Shown here: one piece after another, positions 2,914 through 57,070 of the stretch
Position numbering within the stretch: position 1 is the stretch's first letter
Layout: every line of letters starts with the position of its first letter
Notes under the pieces: model-generated
What the model was told of the DNA's origin: nothing
Seen by the model: only the letters and a program-made list of their open reading frames with translations
Databases searched by the model: none
NCBI GenBank assembly: GCA_000827325.1
Contig: KN832871.1
Span: 2,232,001-2,296,000, forward strand
DNA from: Oidiodendron maius Zn
Taxonomy: Eukaryota; Ascomycota; Leotiomycetes; Myxotrichaceae
Length of the DNA: 64,000 bases
Reading direction: 5' to 3'
Translations under genes and position numbers: made by a program

Positions 2914-5900
2914 ATGGCGACGCTGGAAGACGGTTTCAACCTAGTCCTAGCCGACTTTAAAAAGCGCCTCAAGCCAGACGAGCGGGCCAACTTTGAGTTT
3001 ACGAAACTCAATGATCTTGAGCTGGCGATGAAAGATCTGCAAGAGAGGCAGAGAAAGAGCAAGACGGCCCAGAATCTCACCAGGATCCAACCTTTCCTAC
3101 AAGCGATGATGCAATATAAAGAGATTATTGAAGTTTATTTGAACGCTTCTTCTCTGCTTTGCTTCGTCTGGGGACCAATGAAGTTCATACTTTTAGTAAG
3201 CTCTGATTAGCTCTGTTCAAAATCTGTTATTGTTTTGAGAATAAAGTGTCCTGTGCGCAAGCTAATAATCTCCAGATTGCAAGCAATTGGGCTAAATCAT
3301 ATGATATACTTTTGGATACATACAGGCACTTCGCAGAGAACTTCCCTTTGCTAATGCAATATCGCTCAATGTTTCAAGAAAATGACCACATGAAAAAAAT
3401 CTTGGTCTGGATCTATGAAGACATCTTAAAATTTCATCTTCGTGCCTTACGAGTATTTACTCGGCCAAGTGCCTGCTCCAATCTCTCCAACAAAGTTCAT
3501 CACTAACGGAAAAATAGCGTGGCAGCAATTCTTCAACGCAACTTGGAAAGACTTTCAGGAAAGTTTCAAACCTATCTTGAATGATATCGCCCGCCACCGC
3601 GAGCTGATTGAGAGTAAAGCCAATTTGACTCAGATCCAAGAATCGCGGGATGCCCGCCTTCAGTCTCAGGCATCCTTTGCTGCTCTAGAAAGGGAGCAAA
3701 ACTTGGCTAAAATGCTTTCCGTCGTCAACTGGCTTTCAGCAGCTGATACAGCTCTGGATCATGAAGACTTTGCAAGTAGAAGACAGTTTACTCCCGACAG
3801 TGGTCGTTGGATTCTGGAAGAGCCTAAGGTTAAAGATTGGCTTGATCCGGCGAACTCTTCCGTACCAATTTTCTGGCTAAACGGGATTCCTGGAGCTGGT
3901 AAGGGACTCCCTTGTATACTTTTCTAATTGCAAGCTAACATGTGGTAGGTAAAACTATTCTCGCTTCCCTCGTTGTTGAGGAGTGCTTGAATTTGGCCGA
4001 CGCAAAAAAAGATCAAGTATCACTGGCATATTTTTATTGCAGAGATCAAGACAGCCAGAGGAACAGATTTCCAAGTGTTGCAAAATCGATCCTATCTCAG
4101 CTGCTTCAGCAAAATCCAGATATCCTGGCGTATCTCTACGACGAATGTCTTAAAAGCGCCAAGGTAACTTTGGCATCTGCGCATGACTGCGCCAAGATCC
4201 TTGATACCGGTTTACAGGCTGCTCCTAAAACTTTCATCGTAATTGATGGAATTGACGAATGCGAACAGAAGGAAAGGAGAGCGATGCTTAATTTTTTTGT
4301 ATCTAAAATAAACGACTGTGAGCCTGGAAAGATTCGAGCCTTCTTCATCAGTCAAGAGCTCAACGATATCAAGGCCATTTTGTATAATTCTGAGATCTTA
4401 CGCTTAAATGAGCAGCATAGTAAGCTAGATATCAGGAATTATACCATTAAACGGGCGACAGATATCCAGGAGAGATTCAAGCTAATGCCAGACATGGCGA
4501 AGGATCATATTGTACAATTGGTTTGCGAGGGATCTGATGGCATGTTTCTCTTTGCAAAACTGGTGCTGGAAAATCTCTACGACCAGCAAAACCTAGAAGA
4601 CGTCTATAAGGAGATGCACCCTGACATATTTCCCCGTGGATTTGAACAAGCGTACGCCCATAGAAATTATTTCTGGCTGTCTGCTAATTAATATAGTTAT
4701 GCTCGTATCGTCAATAGGATATTCGAAAATCCCAATCTCGCACAACGACGCACTGCTCGGCAGCTGCTTAGCTGGATTACATGCGCGATACGCCCACTAA
4801 AATGGCAAGAAATTCAGGGTGCAACTTCAATAGATGTTGAGCATGGCCTTGTCAATTTCGAGGGGCGCCAACTACCTGACCACGTACGGGAAATATGTGG
4901 CTCGTTGGTGGATGTGCTACCGGGTAATAGGATCCATTTGGTCCACAAAACCGCTCGCCAGTAAGGGATCCCCTCGTAGCAAAAGAGTATCCCTAACCAC
5001 AGTTATAGGTACCTCATTCATAGTAAGTTTATCGACGAGCACAAGGAAGAACTTTTACTTGCCGTCCTTTGTATAAGGTATCTCACATTCGAGTGCTTCG
5101 ATGCCACGATATCCGAAGACGCGATGCGGCAATTTTTGATGAAAGGCTCTTATGCTTTCCTCGACTACGCCAGCCTACACTGGAACCATCACCTCGAAGC
5201 AGCCATCCGCTTCGGAAATTCGGATGAACTGTGCCGTTCAGCTGATCTCCGGATTGCGATAAATGATTTCTTTGAAATGTATAATCCGGGGCCGATGGAA
5301 TCAAGCGATGTACAGAAAGAATACCTCCAAAGTTGCAAGTCGATTGAGAAGGCCGATTACTATGAACCTCTTGTATTCCTCCTCTGCCACGCCAAAACAA
5401 ACCGCATCAAGGAGGAGAAACTGGAAGCACTTGGGGCGCTGGGTGTGATCGTTGCTAGAGTTCGTGCGATCCTCGAAGGGCTATATACGAGAACGGGAAG
5501 ACAAGGCGCTCAAATCTTAGACCCGTCTACCAAGCAGAATCCGAATGACTTCTATGGTGCCAACTGGTACAAATGTTCCAGGCATGCTTGTTATTACTTC
5601 CATGAAGGCTTTTCAAACGAACGAGGCTTATCGCAGCACACTAACCGCCACGAGAAGCCATTTTGCTGCACCGAAATTGGCTGTACGAGAATGTACATTG
5701 GCTGGGCCACGCAGAAGGAGTTGAAAAAGCACATTGGCCAGTACCACCCAGATCCAGCGGCGTTTGCTTGGAAGTTTCCGCACGTCAAGAAGCCTCCTTC
5801 AGTATTCCAATGCAACCTTTGCACGAAACAATTCACTAGGGCCAACATCCTCAAAACCCACCAACTTAGAGGACACGGTAACGAACGACCGTTTGTTTGC

Positions 5901-6077: not shown

Positions 6078-6690
6078 ATGTGATAGATAGAATTATAACA
6101 AGCAGCATAGGCCCAGAAGACCTCCATGTATTAAACAGTTCTTTGTAGAGCCCGGTTTACTCGACTTCTGAGCGGTAGGGACACACCATTTGTTGAAGGT
6201 CTATAAGCTTTTGGAAGTAGAGTCACATATTCCACCTGATACTGCTATTTGGAAAGGGATTTGATTGAATGTCTAGCTAACTTGAAGCTATAATAACCTA
6301 GTTCCACAAACGGATGGACGCCTAGAACTTGGGCAAACTACTACATATCATATGATGATTCGAAAAGTAAACCAAACATCAACTAAACAATGTGGCAGTC
6401 GGAAAAGATTAATATATCGTTAAGACAATTGCATGATTCTGTGGCAAATGTACATATACGTAACGAGATGTAGGTGATACCACACTGTGACTTCTCTACC
6501 AACTTTGCGCACTTCATGAAAGTAATCATCCCATCCCGATCCACACTCGCATCCCTGATCGTTTTGTCTCGCATTTGGATGTGCTTACCAATGAGGTAGC
6601 AAGTCAGTCAAGGGGTGAAGCTTTGTCCGAGGCCTCGAGCATCAATGCCGGGCCACAGGCGTCTAAGCTGCACCGCCTCAGGTATCACTT
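6078..6690. other. Intergenic, no gene seen
   Basis: About 600 bases after the STAND gene with frequent stops in all frames. The last part, near 6550-6690, may hold the eroded 3' end of the minus-strand relic that follows. Confidence 0.5.
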
Positions 6691-6699
6691 ACCTCATAT

Positions 6700-7475
6700 C
6701 CACAAAGGTTTTCAACCATTGTAGCCATGTATCCTCAAAGATTGGAACAGTCCTGCAAAGCAGTAATACCTAAGAGATAGTGCGAATAGTTCTTCCATGC
6801 AGCAGCTGTTCATAGTGATCGTCGCCGGGCGTACGATCTCACACGGCATGAAGACACGATCCACAATGAACAGAAACAGGACGTGCGCTCTCATTTGAGC
6901 ACCGAAAGAAACACGCTCTAACTGAACAATGTACTCCATTAGCACCTCTTAGGTTTGTCTTCCTGATCTAAGAATGCGCAATATGCAAAGATTAGGATTA
7001 GGTTCTCCACGCATGCATGTGGATAAGACATAGCCACATTTTGAGCAGGCACAACGTACTTCGATACTAATCGAACTAAAGTAGATGAGCAGAAAATGAT
7101 AGAGAGATGAGAGGACGTCACGATATTCGTTGCAATAAAGAAAGATGCATAAAGATAAGCACTTGCCATTTCTCGTTGTTAGTTGTGTGAGCCGAGCATT
7201 CAAAGCTGCCGACGAAGGCATGCTTATCCCCAGCCTCTCTACCCTTGGCCACGACAATAAATAAGCCAGCATAGCGTACGAAAGTTTGCCACTGGATATT
7301 GTAGAACTTTTGATGGACTATTATCCACACTGCAAGCCAAAGTATCACTTCCTCTCCGGCCCGCCAGCGTCAAACTCAATACACTTTGCTTCAACTATGA
7401 CCCGACCGCTGCAGATGCCTTTGGCTTCTCTGACGAGTTGCGCCGATGGTAGTCGAAGGCAATATTTAAGTCATG
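6700..7475 (-). pseudogene. Decayed relic A of an Est1-type DNA/RNA-binding-domain family protein
   Basis: No open gene, but ordered fragments in different minus frames match a protein family I recall as conserved across fungi and related to Est1/SMG7-type DNA/RNA-binding domains. Reading from 7475 downward: QLVREAKGIC and VIVEAKCIEF (7373-7440; family EQLVAEVKGIY...VEAKCIEVD), NNEKWQVLI (about 7160-7190; family NNEQWQALI), LVRLVSKYVVPA (about 7040-7080; family LRRLASKYAMPA) and TVPIFEDTWLQWL (6712-6755; family TVPAFEDTWIECL). Several frame changes and stops separate them, so it is a dead copy. It is the most eroded of three neighbours and is divergent from relic B, with about 200 bases between their 5' ends. 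The family name is from memory; the order of fragments is seen directly. Confidence 0.62.
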
Positions 7476-7674: not shown

Positions 7675-8430
7675 GAAGAGATCAGAAAGGACACGGTCTT
7701 CAATATAATAAAAGAGCCTAAGACAATATTAATTTCGCAAGAGCAACTAGTGACAGAAGTAAAAGGGGTATACGTGGGACCCGTTATGGTGGAGGTAAAG
7801 CGTATCGAGGTGGATAATAAACAAGCCGCACTGGCGTAGCAAGGGGATCTGGTATCCTTGGCCAAGCTGAACAACGAGCAGTGGCAGGCACTAATTGCAT
7901 TGTATCGGACTCTACTTCATGAGCAATATGATTTCTTCCTCGACTCTCAGAATCTGTCAGCGAACCTAGCTCTGCGTAGATTAGCGTCAAAGTATGCCAT
8001 GCCAGCCCGAATGTGGCGACATGGCATACATTCATTCCTTAAGTTGTTGAGACATCGTTTGCCAGCCTCACTCGATCATATGCTCGCTTTCATATATCTA
8101 GCGTACTCGATGATGACCCTGTTATATGAAACAGTACCTGCCTTCGAGGACACATGGATCGAGTGCCTTAGGATCTTGGGCGATATAGGATGACCATCGA
8201 AGATGATGATATCAGAGACAGAGATGTTTGGAATGGAGTCGCGAGCCACCAGTATTCGAATGCCTCGGGCAACGCTCCGACGCCAATTCGATCTCCATCC
8301 ACCAGACACCATGCCATGATATCAACTTTGAACCAGACCATCATTTTCGACGGAATCTTGACGGCGACAAGGGAGTCGAATATGACAAAATGCGTCCTAG
8401 GAGGCGGAATTGTTTGGCGTCATTGTTCTT
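7675..8430 (+). pseudogene. Decayed relic B of the same Est1-type-like family, best preserved copy
   Basis: The plus strand encodes a long run of the same family. DTVFNIIKEPKT starts near 7692, followed by QLVTEVKGVYVG, VEVKRIEVDNKQAALA, an in-frame TAG near 7837, then an open stretch 7858-8193 with KLNNEQWQALIALYRTLLHE, LRRLASKYAMPARMWRHGIH and AFEDTWIECL. After ILGDIG there is a stop/frame change, and the next frame continues with IEDDDIRDRDVWNGV from 8190 to about 8300. Similarity then fades; TATRESNMT near 8370 may correspond to a later family segment. At least one stop and one frameshift break it, while long stretches remain clean, suggesting rather recent decay. Intact members of this family usually run on for several hundred residues, which are missing here. 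Confidence 0.75.
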
Positions 8431-8569
8431 ACCCAGAGCCTGCAATTAGTATAGGATCGAAGAGATTTAAAATGTTTCTCCGGCGGACTTGTCTCGATAG
8501 TAACGACCAGCGGGCCATTTGGCGTAACAAACTAGCTGCTGATCGCATACCGGAAACACAGCTCTAGCA

Positions 8570-8985
8570 CCTACTCTGTTCCACGGCTATCGTCGTTGAC
8601 CGCCATGCGGTAACGTATGAAGCGCTCAGACACTCAATCCAGGTATCTTCAAATGCAGTTGTCGTCTCGCGAGCAATGCTACGAGGCAGACATTTGAACC
8701 AGAGCATATAACTCCAGAACTGCAAACGATATCAAGACAGGACAATAAGTAGACCTATGCGCGTCTCGGGCTGTTCAAAATCATCGATATTTGGAAATGG
8801 TTTGTCGTGGGAGACCGGAGAGTAGTTGCCAATATCAGTGAGCGAAATCCGTAAGATGCCCATCCTCAGATCGAATACCACGGTGACCGTCAGATGTCTC
8901 GCCAGAGACGGACTTATTGAGGCTTTTGAGGCTTTCCAGAGACATATATTTGGAGAGTCGTGTTGAGGTCGTGATCCGAACATGT
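8570..8985 (-). pseudogene. Decayed relic C of the same family, inverted relative to B
   Basis: Minus strand. The diagnostic run TAFEDTWIECL lies at 8628-8660, and RYRMAVNDD in a shifted frame at 8586-8616 matches the family RYRMAIEDDD segment that follows FEDTWIECL in better copies. Upstream, a YRLQFWSYML segment near 8710-8745 fits the family segment before it. The rest, to about 8985, only weakly suggests the N-terminal half. It lies tail to tail with relic B. Because it rests on short blocks, the extent is uncertain, but the nine-residue identity in relics B and C on opposite strands is direct. Confidence 0.5.
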
Positions 8986-9488
8986 CAATAGTTTTCTGAT
9001 ATTTAAGGAAGATGGATTGGGGTGGCTATTTGAGAATATATACTGCGGCGAAAAGTCACGTGCAACCAATAATATGCGCTGACCGTTGCCACTCATCTTC
9101 AAGCTAAAATGCGGTGCAGAAAAGTGAAGAAATCAAGATCAGAGGGTCTCGCTTGGGTTGCCTATTTAGGCAGTATTCATGGGATGCTGGTCCACGATGT
9201 CAAGATACCTGCTGCTGAAACTGAAGTAGAGGCAGAACCCTAGGAGGTGTCGATTACATATCTGAGTCCAGGATGGCAGGATACATGCTGCTAAATCTGG
9301 GGCAGAGGTCGATATATTTCTGACTTCATACATCCCCTCGCGTCGTCTAAACATAATGCAATTCAACCATGTCACGTGAACAATTTCTCTATCTGTTCTA
9401 CAGTAGGACCTTAATGTTTAACCATAAAGATTAAGCCCTATCATTTTTATTCTACACCTTTATTTCTTCAAAATCTAAGTAATCCCCG
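8986..9488. other. Intergenic; holds the left copy of a 21-bp direct repeat
   Basis: No gene recognised. It contains the first copy of the taaaatgcggtgcagaa repeat (9105-9125). The AT-rich stretch 9410-9480 is probably the promoter of the nucleotidyltransferase-family gene. Confidence 0.5.
9105..9125 (+). repeat. Direct repeat, left copy
   Basis: 21 bp beginning taaaatgcggtgcagaa, repeated at 10427-10447 with one mismatch. Weaker similarity (about half the positions) continues for roughly 30 bases downstream of both copies. The two copies bracket the bacterial-looking gene at 9489-10133. Confidence 0.7.
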
Positions 9489-10823: not shown

Positions 10824-11785
10824 CTACTGTGGTGCTGCTTGCGCATAAGGCGTTTTGTTGAATAGCGTCTCGGAGACGATTGGGCAAACGCCACAGCAGC
10901 GACCAGCCAGCAGGTCTTTGGCGCACAACATTGTGGACGAGAACCGCTTCATCATCCCATGGCCAAAGCCGCCAAAGCCCCCACCTGGTGCACCGCCGAA
11001 GCCTCCATGCATACCACCTGCCACTCCGAATCTCTTTTCCATGCCGTGGCCGCCGAAGCCGCCTGGGCCTCCGTGCATACCACCGCCCATTCCACCTCCC
11101 ATGCCTCCTGGAGCTCCGCCGTGCATTCCACCTCCCATGCCAAATCTCTTGTTCATGCCGTGGCCGCCGAAGCCGCCTGGGCCTCCGTGCATACCACCGC
11201 CCATTCCACCTCCCATTCCACCTCCCATGCCTCCTGGAGCTCCGCCGTGCATTCCACCTCCCATGCCGAATCTCTTGTTCATGCCGTGGCCGCCGTGGCC
11301 GCCGTGGCCGCCGAAGCCGCCTTGGCCTCCGTGCATACCGCCTCCCATTCCACCTCTCATTCCACCTCCCATTCCCATGCCGAATCTCTTGTTCATGCCG
11401 TGACCACCATGACCACCCAAGCCTCCTGAGCCTCCGTGCCTTCCGCCACCAAAGTGTCGCATTTCCTTTTGACATAATATCAGCCATGCTCTGATGATAA
11501 TAAGGTGCGTAGTTTAATTTGAGAACTTACCAGCTCAGATTCTGGCTCCGGTTCCGGCTCTGGTACCGGCTCTGGCTCAGGAGCCGGCTCCCTCTTGGCA
11601 ATGGCTGGGCAATGCAGCCCACAACCCTCGGGGATCGGATCTGGGACGCGGAGGCCCGGGTTCTCAAACTCCGAGTACGGCAGCTCTCGAATGCCAATCG
11701 TATTTACGACGGGCACAGGCAGAGCCGTTCCTCCAATGACGAAGGTCGATATCGTACCGGCGACAGCAACGCCTAGAAACTTCAT
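10824..11785 (-). CDS. Secreted Gly/Met/His-rich repeat precursor with Lys-Arg spacers (KEP/RiPP-like layout)
   Basis: Predicted 298-aa secreted precursor. Exons on the minus strand: 11531-11785 and 10824-11465 (65-nt intron). Residues 1-22 form a signal peptide. A propeptide follows with two Cys (GCGLHC) and KR at 64-65, then an EPEPEP-rich linker. Exon 2 encodes repeats built from GGMHGG, GGMGGG and GGFGGHG, with KRFG(M/V) at 111-112, 149-150, 191-192 and 229-230, and KRF at 258-259. The spacing is 38, 42, 38 and 29 residues. The C-terminal peptide (260-298) differs and has four Cys, including RCCGVC. KR is the Kex2 cleavage signal in the Golgi, so the layout predicts several released Gly-rich peptides. 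Met/His density suggests metal binding, especially copper, but this is inference. No UstY (DUF3328) or other tailoring gene is adjacent. An alternative splice gives an Arg-rich frame and was rejected. Confidence 0.8.
10965..11440 (-). repeat. Tandem coding repeats of the KR-repeat precursor
   Basis: Imperfect tandem units of about 114-126 bp, each starting at an AACAAGAGATTCGG-type sequence (Asn-Lys-Arg-Phe) on the minus strand, with internal short GGTGGAATG/GGAGGCATG-type repeats. Copy-number variation by slippage is expected here. Confidence 0.85.
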
Positions 11786-13627
11786 GTTGACGGAGTTTCT
11801 TTTTTGGGGGGGGGATGGGAAAAGGTAGGGATAAAGAGCAGAGATATATGAGGAAGGGGATGGGAGATAGGGTAGAGAAGAGGTGTCGGTCCTAGATGGT
11901 CGAAGTTGCTTGGAATTGAAAGTGCAAATAGGGGATGTTCACTTCAAGATATACTTTTCTACTGTCGCTTTACAATCCCCCATGGAAGAGACGTAGAGTA
12001 ACTTGAGGTTGAAGGAAGAGGCTCCTTCGTTTCCACAGGAGCCGCAAAATATCGCAAACTCTGCTGAAACGGAAGACGCCCTGGCCTCTGTGGTCCGCAG
12101 CAAGACCCCACATGAAAATAACAGAAAGTGTCTAATAACTCTATTGGAGAGGGAAATAACTCGTGCAGCAGAGTCGAATCCGCGCAGTTCTAATAATCCT
12201 TTGTTAATCTTATTGAGCCGCCGATGATACCAAAATAGAGATGAGGGTTTACCAATTCGTCTGCTAGCTGAATGGAATCATGCCATTTTATAATTGCACG
12301 TCCAATTATGGCAATCGTTTATCTATAATTCTTAGACGTGCTTTGCTTCGCTCCGGATATATCACGGACTTCAGCATGTCCAAATGTAAAGCTTATTCGA
12401 AAATCGCAAACAGAGAACAATCAATACGACCCCGCCACTTTACTGTTGGAGAATTCCTATACTCACCCAATCTTGCATCTTAATCCTCTTGTTTCATGTC
12501 CCCAAGCATTCTCCATCTCTGCCATGGCGGTGCAAAAGGAGTTGTCGTCCACTGCCATAAGAAGTGAAAGGTATTGCAGAGGCTATTGCGACCGCCACGT
12601 AGTGACGCAATAAGGCCATCCTCCACATATAAAATTAAGAATGGATTGGGGCTTTTAAAGGAAGGTTCTTACAGACTGCAGGAGATAGTCGTGAAACATC
12701 AAGATCGGGCTCCTAGGATGTTGAAAAGGGGGCTGTGAGGAGCTAAGCGAAGCGTGCTGCAACCTGGTTGGCCCGGGAGTTTTGACTTCGTGCCGCAATC
12801 CCAAGGAGCCCGAGCCACATCAAATCGCCGGGGGTTTACTCGAACATCCAACGCTCTTCTACTTAGCCCTCTGTTTATATTGAGCCCCAAAGTCTAGTAC
12901 CGCCGCACGGCCTTCCCCCATGAAACTAGGCAGGCTCGCTTGTGGGGCTTGGCCACAGACATCCTTAAGGCTTATATATAACCCAGAAACAAAACCTACG
13001 GCTATCCCGGATGTAGAAGATCTTGCGAGAATGGATTTTTGCCTCTGTACTCTTGCTATTGCAACATCACCTCTCGGTCTTACTTTGGGGAATATTTATA
13101 GTTTCTCGTACGGTACGCTTGAAGGAGGATTTATTCTACGCGCGTCACTTTATCTATGTTGCCATTGGCCAGAAGAATCGTATACTGTAGTTAAGAGGCA
13201 CTTACCCAGCAAATCCTCCTTCGAACTTGCCACAAAATATATACTTGCAGCTTACCTGCATTTGAATACCTGTTGTGAAAGACATACTTATTGCAAGCCG
13301 AGGAAGGATAGTAGTCGCAATATTTAATTGGTCCGGAAATCAGTTACTTGTACAAAACGTATTGCGCAGTCTAGTGCCATATGGCTGCCTCCGAAGACCT
13401 GCCGTTGAGGTTGATCGGACTATCTTCTACCTATTAACCCTCCCTACGTTACAGAAGCGCAAGTATCTATATAACAAAGGAAATGGGTATGTGTAGTGTT
13501 ACATGGGTATCGTAGAGCATCATTATTTCAGTCCAACTCAGAATAGCCAACGAAAAATTTCAAACTCCATCAAATGCATCTCGTGTCTCGTTTTCCAGTA
13601 TGTGATCAAGCCAATGATCGTGCATAA
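11786..13627. other. Long intergenic region, no convincing gene
   Basis: The left end is the promoter of the KR-repeat gene: a C9 tract on the minus strand (G9 on plus, 11806-11814) lies about 20 nt upstream of its ATG, and a TATA-like catatatctc is near 11850. An open stretch at 12920-13327 has no recognised domain. A CERHTYC-like Cys/His segment near 13270 faintly recalls HET-protein N-termini, but nothing follows to support it. Confidence 0.45.
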
Positions 13628-33826: not shown

Positions 33827-35387
33827 TCATGGCCTGCTATCTGCCAACCACACTTCCTCATAGCTCCGGGCCTGCTCAACCCGCTCTCTTGTCAACTTAT
33901 ACTCATCTGGTACATCTAAATCCTTCCCACATCCCATTATCAGATCCACAACGGCCTTCCCACAGAGCCAAGCGTTCGGCATTCCATGGCCAGTATATCC
34001 TGCACAAACCCATAGGCCCTTGCCACCTCCAACCCCCAGTTCCTCTCGTACCTCTCCAACCCAGGGATGACCGTCCCTACTATATCCCATAACTCCACTC
34101 CACTCCCATGTGGCCTCTAACTCATCGCCGTCACTCTCTAAATCAAGCAGAGTGTTTAGTTCTCTCCTAAGGTAGGCAGCCGCAGGTGGATCGATATGAG
34201 AATCATCTGAAACCCCTACTCCAGCATGCGCGGCATATGAACGGCCACCTCCGAACATCAATTGACCACCCGATCCGTCGACCTCTGAGAAAGGTCGTTG
34301 GATAAGATAGTCATCCTGGTTAATAGTCTGCTTTCCGTTTCCCATAAATCCGTATGAGCACCTCAAGGGATTAGAAATGATGGCAGGTCGTACAGATTTC
34401 GGCGGGATGAGAGCACTCATTTCTCCCCGAACAGGAACGATAAGGTCACTGAAATTAGGGAGAAGGTGAGAGGTATAGCCATTGGTGGCAAGAAGGACCG
34501 TTGGAGCATGAAGCATTCCGCGCGACGTATGAATGATCCAGCCTTCATCTATCTTTTGAAGGTGCGTGACAGGAGTATTAGTTTGAAGGTTCAGATTCTT
34601 GCTCTGAAGTAGAGATTCAAGGATCCAGGCCACAAACTTATACGGCCAGAGGGAGGCAGCATTGACTTGTAGAATGGCGCCCTTCGCCCCAGGCACTCTG
34701 AGATCCTCTAAAGAGGGCTCCACTGATTCCGTCGTAACTACTGACACAAGTTTCCCTAAATCAGGACACAGTTTCTGGAGATTCTTTACTCCCCTGACGG
34801 CTTCTTCAAACATAGGTGATGATAGAAAGGCATGACAGCCGGGAATGGACTTCCATTCACACGGAATGCTATTTTTCTCAATGAGAGATTTAATGGCTTG
34901 GTAATTCCGAAGCTCAAAAGCACCAATTTCTGGCATGGTGTGATAAATCATAGGCTGGCAATGGCCGCCATTCTGGGGTTTGATTAGAAACTGGTTAGCT
35001 GCAAGACAGTGCAAGACTCACACGGCCCGTTGCTCCCCAACATGCTTCTCGTGCCTCCAGCATTACTACATCCAGATTCTCCGCGCCGAATCGCTGGCGG
35101 AGATGGAAGGCAGCTGATGCACCACATATTCCACTGCCAATGATTACAATGTCTGCAGTGGTAGGGAGAGAAGATGTCGTCCGGTGGCCCAGGAGGGTGC
35201 TGGACGGCTCACTGTGCCAGAATGCCTTCGTGGAATGGCGTGTAGGCAAGCTCGCCCTACCAGATTGACTGGCCCCACGAGCCATGGTTGACTCTGGATT
35301 TCCAGGATTGGCGTTGTGGTCGCTTCGATGCTGCATAGGGTCGGAAGCAATAGGCAGGCACACCGACCGGGGCTGAGTCAAATCCAT
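33827..35387 (-). CDS. FAD-dependent oxidoreductase (DAO family)
   Basis: 503 aa; exons 35022-35387 and 33827-34972, with a 49-nt intron (gtgagt...ccccag). The dinucleotide-binding motif is IVIIGSGICGASAAFHLRQR at ~79-98, followed by an Ala/Glu strand VVMLEAREACWGATGRNGGH, typical of D-amino-acid oxidase-like enzymes (Pfam DAO) in which GATGRNGG contacts FAD. The C-terminal FAD loop is AGYTGHGMPNAWLCGKAV at ~460-477. Members oxidise amines or amino acids such as gamma-glutamylputrescine or sarcosine; the substrate is not predictable here. The first ~70 residues are polar and may be dispensable; an internal Met at 18 is an alternative start. No peroxisomal SKL-type end is present (ends DSRP). 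Confidence 0.88.
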
Positions 35388-54951: not shown

Positions 54952-56541
54952 TTAGTAAATACCCTCTCCCCACAGTCCAGGATCCTTTTCTAGCCTCTCC
55001 ATCACGTCACTGGCCAAATATATTAAAATGTCAGCCCCGTTTTGTGTCCAATGACCCCCTTCCTTCTCACCAAGGCCTTCTATCACCAAAACCAATCCAT
55101 CACCGCCCATCTCCGGCTGCACATACCTTAATGTTGGTGGTTCGGTGCCAGTTCTACTACGGCCAACAAAATCTACGTAACATGCCCCGGCACCCACCCA
55201 TGTAGTTTGAAGTATGTGCTTCTTGCCAAGGAAAGCCCGCCATAGACGCTGTGGTGAAATCTCAAATGCTGAATCGTGAAGGAAAGCTCCTATGGCATTG
55301 GGCGTGAAGATCTCCAGGTAACTTCGAATCCTACTTGCAATTTCGGAAAGTTTGGGATACTGAGATACCGTGGAAGGTATGACTGTGGGAATTGCCGCAA
55401 TAATTATAGGGCTACCAAGGAAGTTCTCAGGAAGAGAGAGTCGCGAACGAAGACCGATAGTTAAGTCGAGATATGTGACAGCGGAAGCAGGGAGTTGCCT
55501 AGCCAGATTTATACGCGTCCAGATATGTGCCAGAAGAGCATCATGCTTGGAGATCTTGGAATTGTGGTCGGAGCTTGCGATGGCATGTAGGTGCTGTATC
55601 TCCTCAGGCGTGAAATGCAAGACTAGATGTGAAGTGGGTGCATTAGTGTCCCAGTCTTCCCAGGGAATTGGATCACTAGGACTTAAGTCTGTAGTGGAAT
55701 CAAAATCATCTGGGGTATGTGCCGGCCATGGCTGGTTTGGGACCTCTTTGTACCAATCAAATCTGTGAAATGGCAAATCACGGGCTTGCTGCACTAGAGC
55801 TGGGTCAGGGGATTCAGCGTCGATGTCTCCGGCGGCTGCAGCATCGAGCAGCTTCGGATTAAACACTGGAGATGGAGTCGGCAGATCCGTTAAGGAGTAA
55901 AGAGTACGACTGACAGATGCCCAGTCCCGTGCAAAGGTACACATTCCTTGTGCATCAGAGAGGCCATGAGAGATAGCAATGCCGACAGAGGTGCTGCCGC
56001 ATGCGAATTTGGTGATTTGGACCAAGAGGTTAGGAGCATCAGGTGAGGGGCTACCACTTGAGAGGGCCATCCGGGTTGATGGGAGTAGTCCCGCTGAAGT
56101 CAGCTGCGAACCGTCCCATGCCTTGAAGTCGGTTCTCCGGGCGGCGGGACTGGGAAGAAAATCTGAGAGTGTTCTTGAAGAAAACGCCGTAACGAAGGTC
56201 ACTCCGAGGTCTGTGCCAGCGTTAAAAGTGACCTGAACCCGGCGATATCGTTTAGTATAGCCCCCATTCTTCTGCGGGACTACGTAGGACAAACGCCCAC
56301 ACCAAGGACGGTACGAGTTTAAAGTCTTAGAGAGCGCAGTTCGCAGGTGAGATGGAGATAGGGATGATTCTGGGCTTGAAGGGGGGTCATAGAACCAAAT
56401 GCCGGCCGTCCGTGCAAAGTAGGAGACAGTGGAATCAACAATTGAGAGCGGAATGGTCGTGGGTTCTCCTGACCTCGAGTCAGGGAAGACCTGGACGGTC
56501 GATGTCACCTGAACTTCGAGCGAGAAATTATCATCAACCAT
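54952..56541 (-). CDS. BAHD-type acyltransferase (Pfam Transferase family)
   Basis: 529 aa, single exon. The catalytic HxxxD motif is seen as ISHGLSDAQGM (~193-203), and a DFGWG-equivalent as YVDFVGRSRTG (~452-462), with the aromatic/Trp position changed as in many fungal members. The N-terminal part has the family LRTALSKTLNSYRPWCGRL helix. BAHD enzymes move acyl groups from CoA to alcohols or amines; fungal relatives include trichothecene 3-O-acetyltransferase and several secondary-metabolite enzymes. No other biosynthetic gene is adjacent, so pathway membership is unknown. The start at 56541 is preceded by CT-poor sequence, but the first residues (MVDDNFSLEVQVTSTVQVFP) fit the family. Confidence 0.87.
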   Translation of the reverse strand: MVDDNFSLEVQVTSTVQVFPDSRSGEPTTIPLSIVDSTVSYFARTAGIWFYDPPSSPESSLSPSHLRTALSKTLNSYRPWCGRLSYVVPQKNGGYTKRYRRVQVTFNAGTDLGVTFVTAFSSRTLSDFLPSPAARRTDFKAWDGSQLTSAGLLPSTRMALSSGSPSPDAPNLLVQITKFACGSTSVGIAISHGLSDAQGMCTFARDWASVSRTLYSLTDLPTPSPVFNPKLLDAAAAGDIDAESPDPALVQQARDLPFHRFDWYKEVPNQPWPAHTPDDFDSTTDLSPSDPIPWEDWDTNAPTSHLVLHFTPEEIQHLHAIASSDHNSKISKHDALLAHIWTRINLARQLPASAVTYLDLTIGLRSRLSLPENFLGSPIIIAAIPTVIPSTVSQYPKLSEIASRIRSYLEIFTPNAIGAFLHDSAFEISPQRLWRAFLGKKHILQTTWVGAGACYVDFVGRSRTGTEPPTLRYVQPEMGGDGLVLVIEGLGEKEGGHWTQNGADILIYLASDVMERLEKDPGLWGEGIY

Positions 56542-57070
56542 TGTTTATGGTCGGGGTGTGGTTGGGACAAATTGAGGATATTGTAGTCTTATCACCTCCT
56601 TGAGATGGCGCTCCATGCTTTATATAGACTGGTGTATTCAAGATGGTGACACCCATTTCACCGGTATCGTACCCATAAGCTCACCCAAGCCACTTCAACC
56701 CTGCGGGCTTGACTCCAATGATAGAACGCAAACAAGAGAAATGAGTCCATTAAAGAATCGAAGCTGGATAGAAATTGGGTGAGTCATTCTGATGCCATTC
56801 TTACGAGTCTTGAACGGGAAGGTGGAGCAGCTCCCTTGAACACATTTGTGGGTGCTGTGGCGTTTACGGGTTACATACCCTCTCGCCTACTTCAACCCAG
56901 GTGTTGAAACATACCTACAGCACGTACAAAGTAACGAGTTGGTCATGTGCTGGCAGTAATGGCATTTAAAAAAAGGTCGGATATATTACTCCCCTCTGCT
57001 TTCATTGAGAAATATATTTTCAAGATCGTCTGTGGCAAATGTCCATCCTCATGCCTATATCCTTAGGTCT
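56542..57070. other. Intergenic
   Basis: Promoter of the acyltransferase and 3' UTR of the Kelch gene; nothing else seen. Confidence 0.5.

Follow-up and report, generated by a model that had tools for sequence, protein, structure and literature searches.

The gene described here is read, at about even confidence, as encoding a secreted two-module Kex2-processed repeat protein (KEP) that belongs to a family with a conserved leader and changing cargo, and whose products are most likely metal-responsive Gly/His/Met peptides for biotic interaction. The anatomy of the gene and its place in a family are the parts of this reading that we hold with high confidence. The KEP class is already known. What is new here is the chemistry of the repeat units, a second and constrained Cys module, and a family with a conserved leader, an upstream element and changing cargo.

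The DNA analysed is a stretch of 64,000 nucleotides, termed the window, which corresponds to bases 2232001-2296000 of contig C2. All genome-wide counts refer to an assembly of 45.9 Mb in 58 contigs, in which a 5.8S rRNA search gave no match. Its introns, together with its kexin, UstYa and NACHT-type genes, show it to be fungal, probably from a filamentous ascomycete. The contig labels C2, C3, C5, C9, C13 and C17 also serve as names for the family members found there, C2 being the window gene.

Architecture of the precursor

The window gene lies on the minus strand, begins with an ATG at position 11785, and consists of two exons that encode a product of 298 amino acids (Table 1). The first-pass annotation had described a signal peptide, six KR sites, four spacers of 38, 42, 38 and 29 residues made almost only of Gly, Met, His and Phe, and a final 39-residue peptide with four Cys residues (RCCGVC). 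Translation reproduces this layout. The KR sites fall at residues 64, 111, 149, 191, 229 and 258; when the residues of the mature part were shuffled 20,000 times, a shuffle contained 0.34 KR on average and never more than 4. Gly, Met, His and Phe make up 143 of the 174 residues from the start of exon 2 to the last KR. A signal peptide is likewise predicted, by eye and from likeness across relatives (five sequences aligned, plus C17). The first-pass annotation gave no strand and made no mention of the X-Pro run, the propeptide CGLHC or the relatives within the genome.

Table 1. Features of the window gene, in window positions, and (last three rows) its relatives, in positions on their own contigs
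Feature	Position	Strand	Remarks
Upstream inverted repeat	12020..12043	-	GGCTCCT-N10-AGGAGCC; 235-258 bases before the ATG
Exon 1	11531..11785	-	255 nt
Signal peptide (predicted)	11723..11785	-	MKFLGVAVAGTISTFVIGGTA; residues 1-21; hydrophobic; cleavage site estimated by eye; similar in five relatives
Propeptide	11591..11722	-	Residues 22-65; holds CGLHC; first KR at its end
Eight X-Pro dipeptides	11543..11590	-	EPAPEPEPVPEPEPEP; Ste13-type signature directly after the first KR
Intron	11466..11530	-	65 nt; GTAAGT...CAAAAG; phase 0; position and phase common to C5 and C13
Exon 2 (cargo exon)	10824..11465	-	Stop codon counted in
Unit 1, exon 2 part	11385..11465	-	EMRHFGGGRHGGSGGLGGHGGHGMNKR
Unit 2	11271..11384	-	38 residues; FGM start, NKR end
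Unit 3	11145..11270	-	42 residues; FGM start, NKR end
Unit 4	11031..11144	-	38 residues; FGM start, EKR end; same as unit 3 apart from a 4-residue gap and E in place of N
Unit 5	10944..11030	-	29 residues; FGV start, MKR end
End peptide	10827..10943	-	39 residues; four Cys (C-x8-CC-x2-C); single copy; core CAKDLLAGRCCGVCP
C5 relative	Exon 1 1829474-1829271; exon 2 from 1829208 downwards	-	Decayed copy
C13 relative	367575-367183		114 residues, repeat-free: signal peptide, GKR site, then peptide with CARNVLAGRCCGVCP
C3 relative	C3:2469739-2470050		Signal peptide, then two near-identical units of about 30 residues (DLHYDTGAFGGLNQAKLFSGRPLSQRAEP) ending in single-Arg SQR

Units 2-4 carry six or seven Met and three or four His residues apiece, and Tyr and Trp are absent from the Gly/Met/His units. 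The near-identity of units 3 and 4 suggests a recent expansion. The first fragment comprises residues 66-112 and starts with the eight X-Pro dipeptides; this Ste13 signature accompanies the first KR only, the other five of the six sites being devoid of it.

In KEP processing as published, Kex2 cuts after KR, Kex1 takes off the KR, and Ste13 takes off X-Pro dipeptides (PMC6339444; PMC9769878). By this route the signal peptide would be removed from the window-gene precursor, Kex2 would cut after the six KR sites, Kex1 would trim the KR, and a Ste13-like dipeptidase would strip the (X-Pro)8 run off the first fragment. The predicted products are five near-neutral, flexible Gly/Met/His/Phe peptides of 29, 36, 40, 36 and 27 residues, and a separate 39-residue four-Cys peptide that may be stabilised by disulfides or by metal. 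After trimming, the Gly/Met/His peptides would have few or no Lys/Arg residues (0 to 2 Arg each), and their computed charge ranges from -1.0 to +1.1 at pH 7 and from +1.8 to +4.7 at pH 5; those that read FGM...GMN have a computed mass of about 3.1-3.4 kDa. A genome search for kexin gave one P-domain match, and a catalytic-domain frame nearby matches a solved kexin with E 4e-99. From sequence, we infer that the gene is expressed and that its peptides are released by Kex2, bind metal and are active.

Searches of Pfam, NCBIfam and PDB sequences returned no family match at cut-off for the window-gene protein. In Pfam, an acidic Pro-Glu run gave two weak matches with E 0.022 and 0.74, both far short of their own cut-offs. 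The same sequence searches gave no family for the C13 and C3 products either. No such protein was found in the literature by sequence-string search of main texts or, among the matches listed, by word searches; the short unit and Cys strings that did match in available main texts concern GroEL tails, engineered pili and chick gut.

Intron and reading frame

A phase-0 intron followed by a Glu codon that opens exon 2 is common to C2, C5 and C13, the three members in which the intron can be placed. The intron measures 62 nt in C5, which has an AAG acceptor as in C2, and 48 nt in C13. Because its place and phase are the same in two relatives, the 65-nt splice proposed in the first-pass annotation is supported.

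CAG is a commoner type of splice acceptor than AAG. Alternative acceptors for the window gene give, among others, a 345-aa Arg-rich frame through a 40-nt intron. On the plus strand, long open frames, one of them Pro-rich, lie antisense to the repeats (positions 10849-11494), an openness that follows from the Gly-rich composition of the repeats. We rejected both the Arg-rich splice and the antisense frames on the common place and phase of the intron and on frame-specific constraint. When the end peptide is compared with C13, 12 of 17 residues are identical in the reported frame; the two alternative frames give 6 of 16 and 7 of 16. The divergence from C13 is frame-specific and mostly synonymous, and for this reason we regard the reading frame as strongly supported. 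Codon choice over the repeats scores 0.13 bits per codon in the reported frame and -0.11 to +0.08 in the remaining five, and is uninformative for exon 1 and for the tail; codon usage is of little help in settling the frame.

A dispersed family in the same genome

Relatives were sought within this one genome, and six loci were obtained, the window gene included. The protein search with the window gene gave seven rows: two for its own exons, one for C5, two for C13 (the start and end of one gene), one for C9 and one for C35. The C35 match (E 1.16, 24% identity) was set aside as composition.

The exon 1 product of C5 is the closest to that of the window gene (49% identity), and CGVSC...AKREPEP is its counterpart of the window-gene propeptide. 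Exon 2 of C5 contains Gly/Met/His units and a KRFGM boundary, but it has in-frame stops and is without the Cys tail. Since C5 has the Gly/Met/His module though the exon 1 products are only 49% identical, this module predates the duplication that separated C5 from the window gene. A retroelement fragment (Pfam SH3_retrovirus; 3345-4118 of the fetched C5 flank), which we take to be Copia-like, lies about 3.4 kb from the C5 relative.

The C3 relative was recovered with E 1.6e-4 in a further search and by the dibasic rule is not a KEP. C17 is weak as protein (E 0.85), whereas the genome-wide DNA comparison gives E 8e-19; its DNA is 67% identical to that of the window gene over 377 aligned bp, promoter included. 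In C17 and C9 the signal peptide is followed by short unrelated continuations, with no clear complete cargo. C9 is the least certain member of the family: its signal peptide matches with E 0.35, and 64-123 bp of DNA resemble four members with E 3e-7 to 3e-4 in a small set. Near the C13 relative, about 2.6 kb downstream, is a frame for a small secreted-looking multi-Cys protein (MKFLLISTLIAFASTTYS...; minus strand, 6612-7091 of the fetched flank), for which there was no Pfam match.

These relatives change the interpretation of the window gene: C5 has the Gly/Met/His module without the Cys tail, C13 has only the Cys peptide, and C3, C17 and C9 have other continuations.

The Cys end peptide

Between the window gene and C13, 12 of the 15 residues of the Cys core are kept. 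The core shows eight synonymous and three nonsynonymous differences over 11.8 and 31.3 sites, respectively (pN/pS 0.14, P 0.002), and the ten codons for LAGRCCGVCP have undergone six synonymous changes and no nonsynonymous ones. A DNA pattern for GRCCGVC occurs at exactly two places in the whole genome, the window gene and C13, and its backward control at none. This comparison shows that selection acts, or for a long time acted, on the predicted Cys peptide at the protein level. The first-pass annotation had treated the end peptide as an oddity. It is instead, on these codon differences, the putative product with the clearest protein-level constraint, and it stands alone in C13.

An upstream element and the change of cargo

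Five of the six members (C2, C5, C13, C3 and C17) have upstream an element of the type GRCTCCT-N10-AGGAGCC that starts between -245 and -259; the sequence upstream of C9 has no counterpart. In C2 and C3 the arms mirror each other perfectly as an inverted repeat; they have one mismatch in C13 and C17 and are further diverged in C5, the left arm being imperfect in the last three. Within the element, 16 of 24 columns are invariant in the five sequences, compared with 3 for the median 24-column window, and pairwise identity is 70-92% versus 40-78% in the remaining upstream sequence. These figures are for the element itself; a 24-column block that starts inside it gives 78-95% versus 40-77%.

The element was chosen after the alignment had been seen. 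Genome-wide there are four exact matches to the pattern, each before a family gene (C2, C3, C13 and C17), but as the pattern was drawn from family promoters these are present by construction, and the new part is that no exact match occurs elsewhere. With up to two mismatches there are five matches versus six for the backward control, so that, of the matches, only the exact ones carry weight; the case for the element is built on these and on its local conservation. A two-mismatch match on C6 was taken as chance.

How cargo changes was measured in one pair, C13 and C3. On the 5′ side, these loci are 75.9% identical in a stretch of 974 aligned bp that ends at codon 23; on the 3′ side they are 75.8% identical over 306 bp from about 25 bp past each stop. 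The parts between (347 and 268 bp) align with a score that was reached by 142 of 500 shuffles in local alignment and by 343 of 500 in global alignment. In this one pair, similarity persists in the promoter, the signal peptide and the 3′ flank, and the predicted mature-coding part is replaced or diverged beyond recognition.

Taken over all members, it is well supported by sequence comparison that a dispersed family keeps the putative signal peptide, the upstream element (five of six members) and the intron position (three placeable members) as its cargo changes. This pattern points to a rapidly evolving repertoire of peptides that may act as secreted weapons or at the cell surface.

Neighbourhood and class

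The window gene is situated between a nucleotidyltransferase-like gene (PF06042) and a gene for a KIF1-type kinesin. The window contains 28 frames of at least 200 aa; the Pfam scan covered 16 neighbouring frames and the gene itself. Among these 16 frames there is no UstYa, methyltransferase or metal-transport gene, in keeping with the earlier remark that no UstY or methyltransferase neighbour was visible, and an FAD oxidoreductase (33827-35017, 22 kb from the gene) and an acyltransferase (54952-56544, 43 kb) did appear. Elsewhere in the genome UstYa has at least 70 matches, several of them clustered on C1, C11, C15 and C17. Among the matches listed, the nearest to the window gene on C2 lies some 318 kb off, at 2561755; another, on C9, is about 16 kb from the C9 relative. 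We found no link between this rich UstYa repertoire and the window gene.

Around C5, C13, C3 and C17, flanks of approximately 10 kb on each side were taken, and 20 of their 51 frames of at least 130 aa were scanned with Pfam. NPHP3_N/NACHT are the only Pfam families present at more than one family locus among the scanned frames (window, C5 and C3), the NLR-like frames in question being at 3939-4691 of the window, 8409-9041 of the fetched C5 flank and 3-1733 of the fetched C3 flank. As this group is large in fungi, its recurrence may be due to chance.

Two computational definitions of KEPs have been published, and 7878 KEPs are reported from 1345 strains (PMC7329392). The pipeline of Le Marquer (2019) takes proteins that have a signal peptide by SignalP, no transmembrane segment by TMHMM, and at least four fragments after cuts at KR or RR, of which at least three are similar and amount to at least 15% of the protein (PMC6339444). 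Six KR sites divide the window-gene product into seven fragments, and units 2, 3 and 4, which are alike by reading, comprise 118 of its 298 residues. Umemura (2020) defines KEPs by at least three tandem repeats, each 8 to 100 aa long and lying between Kex2 sites (PMC7329392); by count, the window gene has four F-starting units of 29-42 residues including KR. The testable parts of both definitions support the classification of the predicted product as a KEP, and a kexin gene is present in the genome. This part of the first-pass interpretation stands.

The other part, a dikaritin- or borosin-like precursor, is not supported. Dikaritins are recognised by a UstYa/DUF3328 gene in the neighbourhood, and neither such a gene nor a methyltransferase gene is among the 16 scanned frames; the units also provide no Tyr or Trp. 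The structural or metal-binding role that the first-pass annotation put forward may hold. The repeated WCxxxGxxCW core by which alpha-pheromone precursors are recognised is likewise absent from the window-gene protein. This core is usual in Sordariomycetes and Leotiomycetes; in this genome the DNA pattern for it, which covers cores that have both the Cys pair and the final Trp, has no match.

Function and alternative explanations

Interaction genes, more typically than structural or housekeeping genes, change their cargo behind a conserved delivery module, and on this ground we favour a function in biotic interaction. Outside the cell, the Gly/Met/His peptides would be metal-responsive (Zn/Cu via His, Cu via Met), self-assembling or antimicrobial, working in the manner of plant shepherins or crustacean armadillidins, and the change of cargo in the family would reflect a role towards competitors, grazers or hosts. 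This function, drawn by analogy with those peptides, is a tentative proposal that we place clearly short of even confidence. Several findings go against the explanation as a whole. Of the relatives found, C5 alone has the Gly/Met/His module, and its copy is broken by in-frame stops; constraint was measured for the Cys core, and units 3 and 4 look recently expanded. Armadillidin is described as cationic, and the window-gene Gly/Met/His peptides have few or no Lys/Arg. Five of the six KR sites are devoid of a Ste13 signature, C17 and C9 show no clear complete cargo, C9 is also without the upstream element, the two-mismatch pattern does not outnumber its backward control, and cargo replacement was measured in a single pair.

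It is unlikely, if with some real weight, that the Gly/Met/Phe units are instead structural or surface peptides that cover hyphae or spores with an elastic or amyloid-like coat, in the manner of abductin, the rubber of bivalve hinges, or of the Kex2-released Rep1 peptides. Units of 27-40 residues with FGMGGG and GGFGG motifs would suit such a coat, Gly/Met-rich chaperonin tails, which have been likened to abductin, form polyproline II helices (PMC12571646), and Rep1 peptides form amyloid-like fibrils (PMC9769878). A coat would be expected to be conserved, yet the cargo of this family changes. Repellents are also usually amphipathic in make-up, and the window-gene units do not have this make-up. 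Less probable again is that the gene exists for its Cys end peptide, with the Gly/Met/His repeats no more than a spacer or pro-sequence that grew by neutral expansion. The measurable purifying selection on the Cys core, the presence of that core without repeats in C13 and the sign of recent expansion in units 3 and 4 are in accord with this idea, but the KRF boundary and the same odd composition are found in C5 too, and six KR sites exceed the need of a spacer.

We consider it improbable that the gene serves the fungus's own metal handling, by way of a secreted Cu/Zn buffer or metallophore-like peptides in which Met would bind Cu(I) and His Cu(II)/Zn(II), with a Cys4 tail. The Met and His content of units 2-4 and the four tail Cys residues together with the propeptide CGLHC would fit this role; against it, the 16 neighbouring frames hold no metal-transport gene by Pfam, we recognise no known metal-response element in the upstream repeat, and change of cargo is unusual for housekeeping metal buffers. 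A dikaritin-like RiPP precursor whose tailoring enzymes are elsewhere is highly improbable. A DUF3328 neighbour accompanies just 22% of KEP genes, so that a missing one does not alone exclude modification, and the genome, besides the KEP architecture of the gene, offers many UstYa matches; however, where a DUF3328 neighbour is present its mean distance is 3.09 genes (PMC7329392), as opposed to about 318 kb here among the matches listed, and the units lack Tyr and Trp. To the last alternative, that the locus is non-coding as described, through a wrong splice or frame or as a dead gene, we give the slightest weight. Several frames are open over the repeats on both strands, and use of the CAG acceptor that makes a 40-nt intron leads to the Arg-rich frame, but the intron has its place and phase in common with relatives, the divergence from C13 is frame-specific and mostly synonymous, and codon choice over the repeats is best in the reported frame.

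Most KEPs are without known function, and the reading of the window gene as a two-module KEP with interaction peptides offers handles on this question: the shared upstream element leads one to expect co-regulation, the two cargo modules occur apart from each other in relatives, and the Cys core is under constraint. The Gly/Met/His peptides are short and easily synthesised for tests of metal-driven assembly and antimicrobial action. If this reading is right, the family shows a fungus making new secreted peptides by keeping the delivery and changing the cargo.

Comparison with known systems

Like other KEPs, the window-gene product has a signal peptide, KR-bounded repeats and a Ste13-type X-Pro run, with a kexin encoded in the genome. 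It differs from them in that its units are long (29-42 residues with KR) and almost only Gly/Met/His/Phe, in the one non-repeat four-Cys end peptide that exists in a repeat-free version in a relative, and in belonging to a family with an upstream element and changing cargo. The alpha-pheromone precursors of ascomycetes also have KR sites and Ste13-type dipeptides following a KR, but in the window gene the Ste13 signature is at the first site only, WCxxxGxxCW is absent, and there is a single C-x8-CC-x2-C. With dikaritins of the ustiloxin/phomopsin type the gene has the KEP architecture in common; in contrast to them it has no UstYa within about 318 kb, among the matches listed, and its repeat units contain no Tyr. 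The Rep1 repellents of Ustilago maydis are linear peptides freed from a KEP-type precursor (PMC9769878), a likeness of architecture.

With Zn(II), the plant Gly/His peptide shepherin I turns into fibrils and becomes antifungal (PMC10698721). GGGF(H/N)(R/S) repeats are found in the armadillidins, linear antimicrobial peptides that are rich in Gly and described as cationic (PMC5031766). Shepherins (Capsella) and armadillidins (woodlouse) resemble the window-gene units, by composition only, as linear Gly-rich peptides with His and GGX-type repeats, whereas the units are Met-rich with little or no Arg, and no shared descent is claimed. Abductin and the Gly/Met tails of GroEL/Hsp60 have GGM/GGGM motifs in common with the units; unlike them, the units are predicted to be secreted, are punctuated by KR and are rich in His, and here too no shared descent is claimed. 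Abductin carries FGG as well.

A broader parallel follows from reading the six loci as a secreted-peptide cassette family, a suggestion that falls a little short of even confidence. A fixed delivery module (element, signal-peptide exon and intron) would extend over the six loci, cargo would be swapped wholesale between conserved flanks, and the window gene would combine two modules that two relatives carry singly. If true, this would be a new chemical type of KEP cargo and a fungal counterpart of the conserved-leader, hypervariable-cargo systems of which cone-snail toxins are an example.
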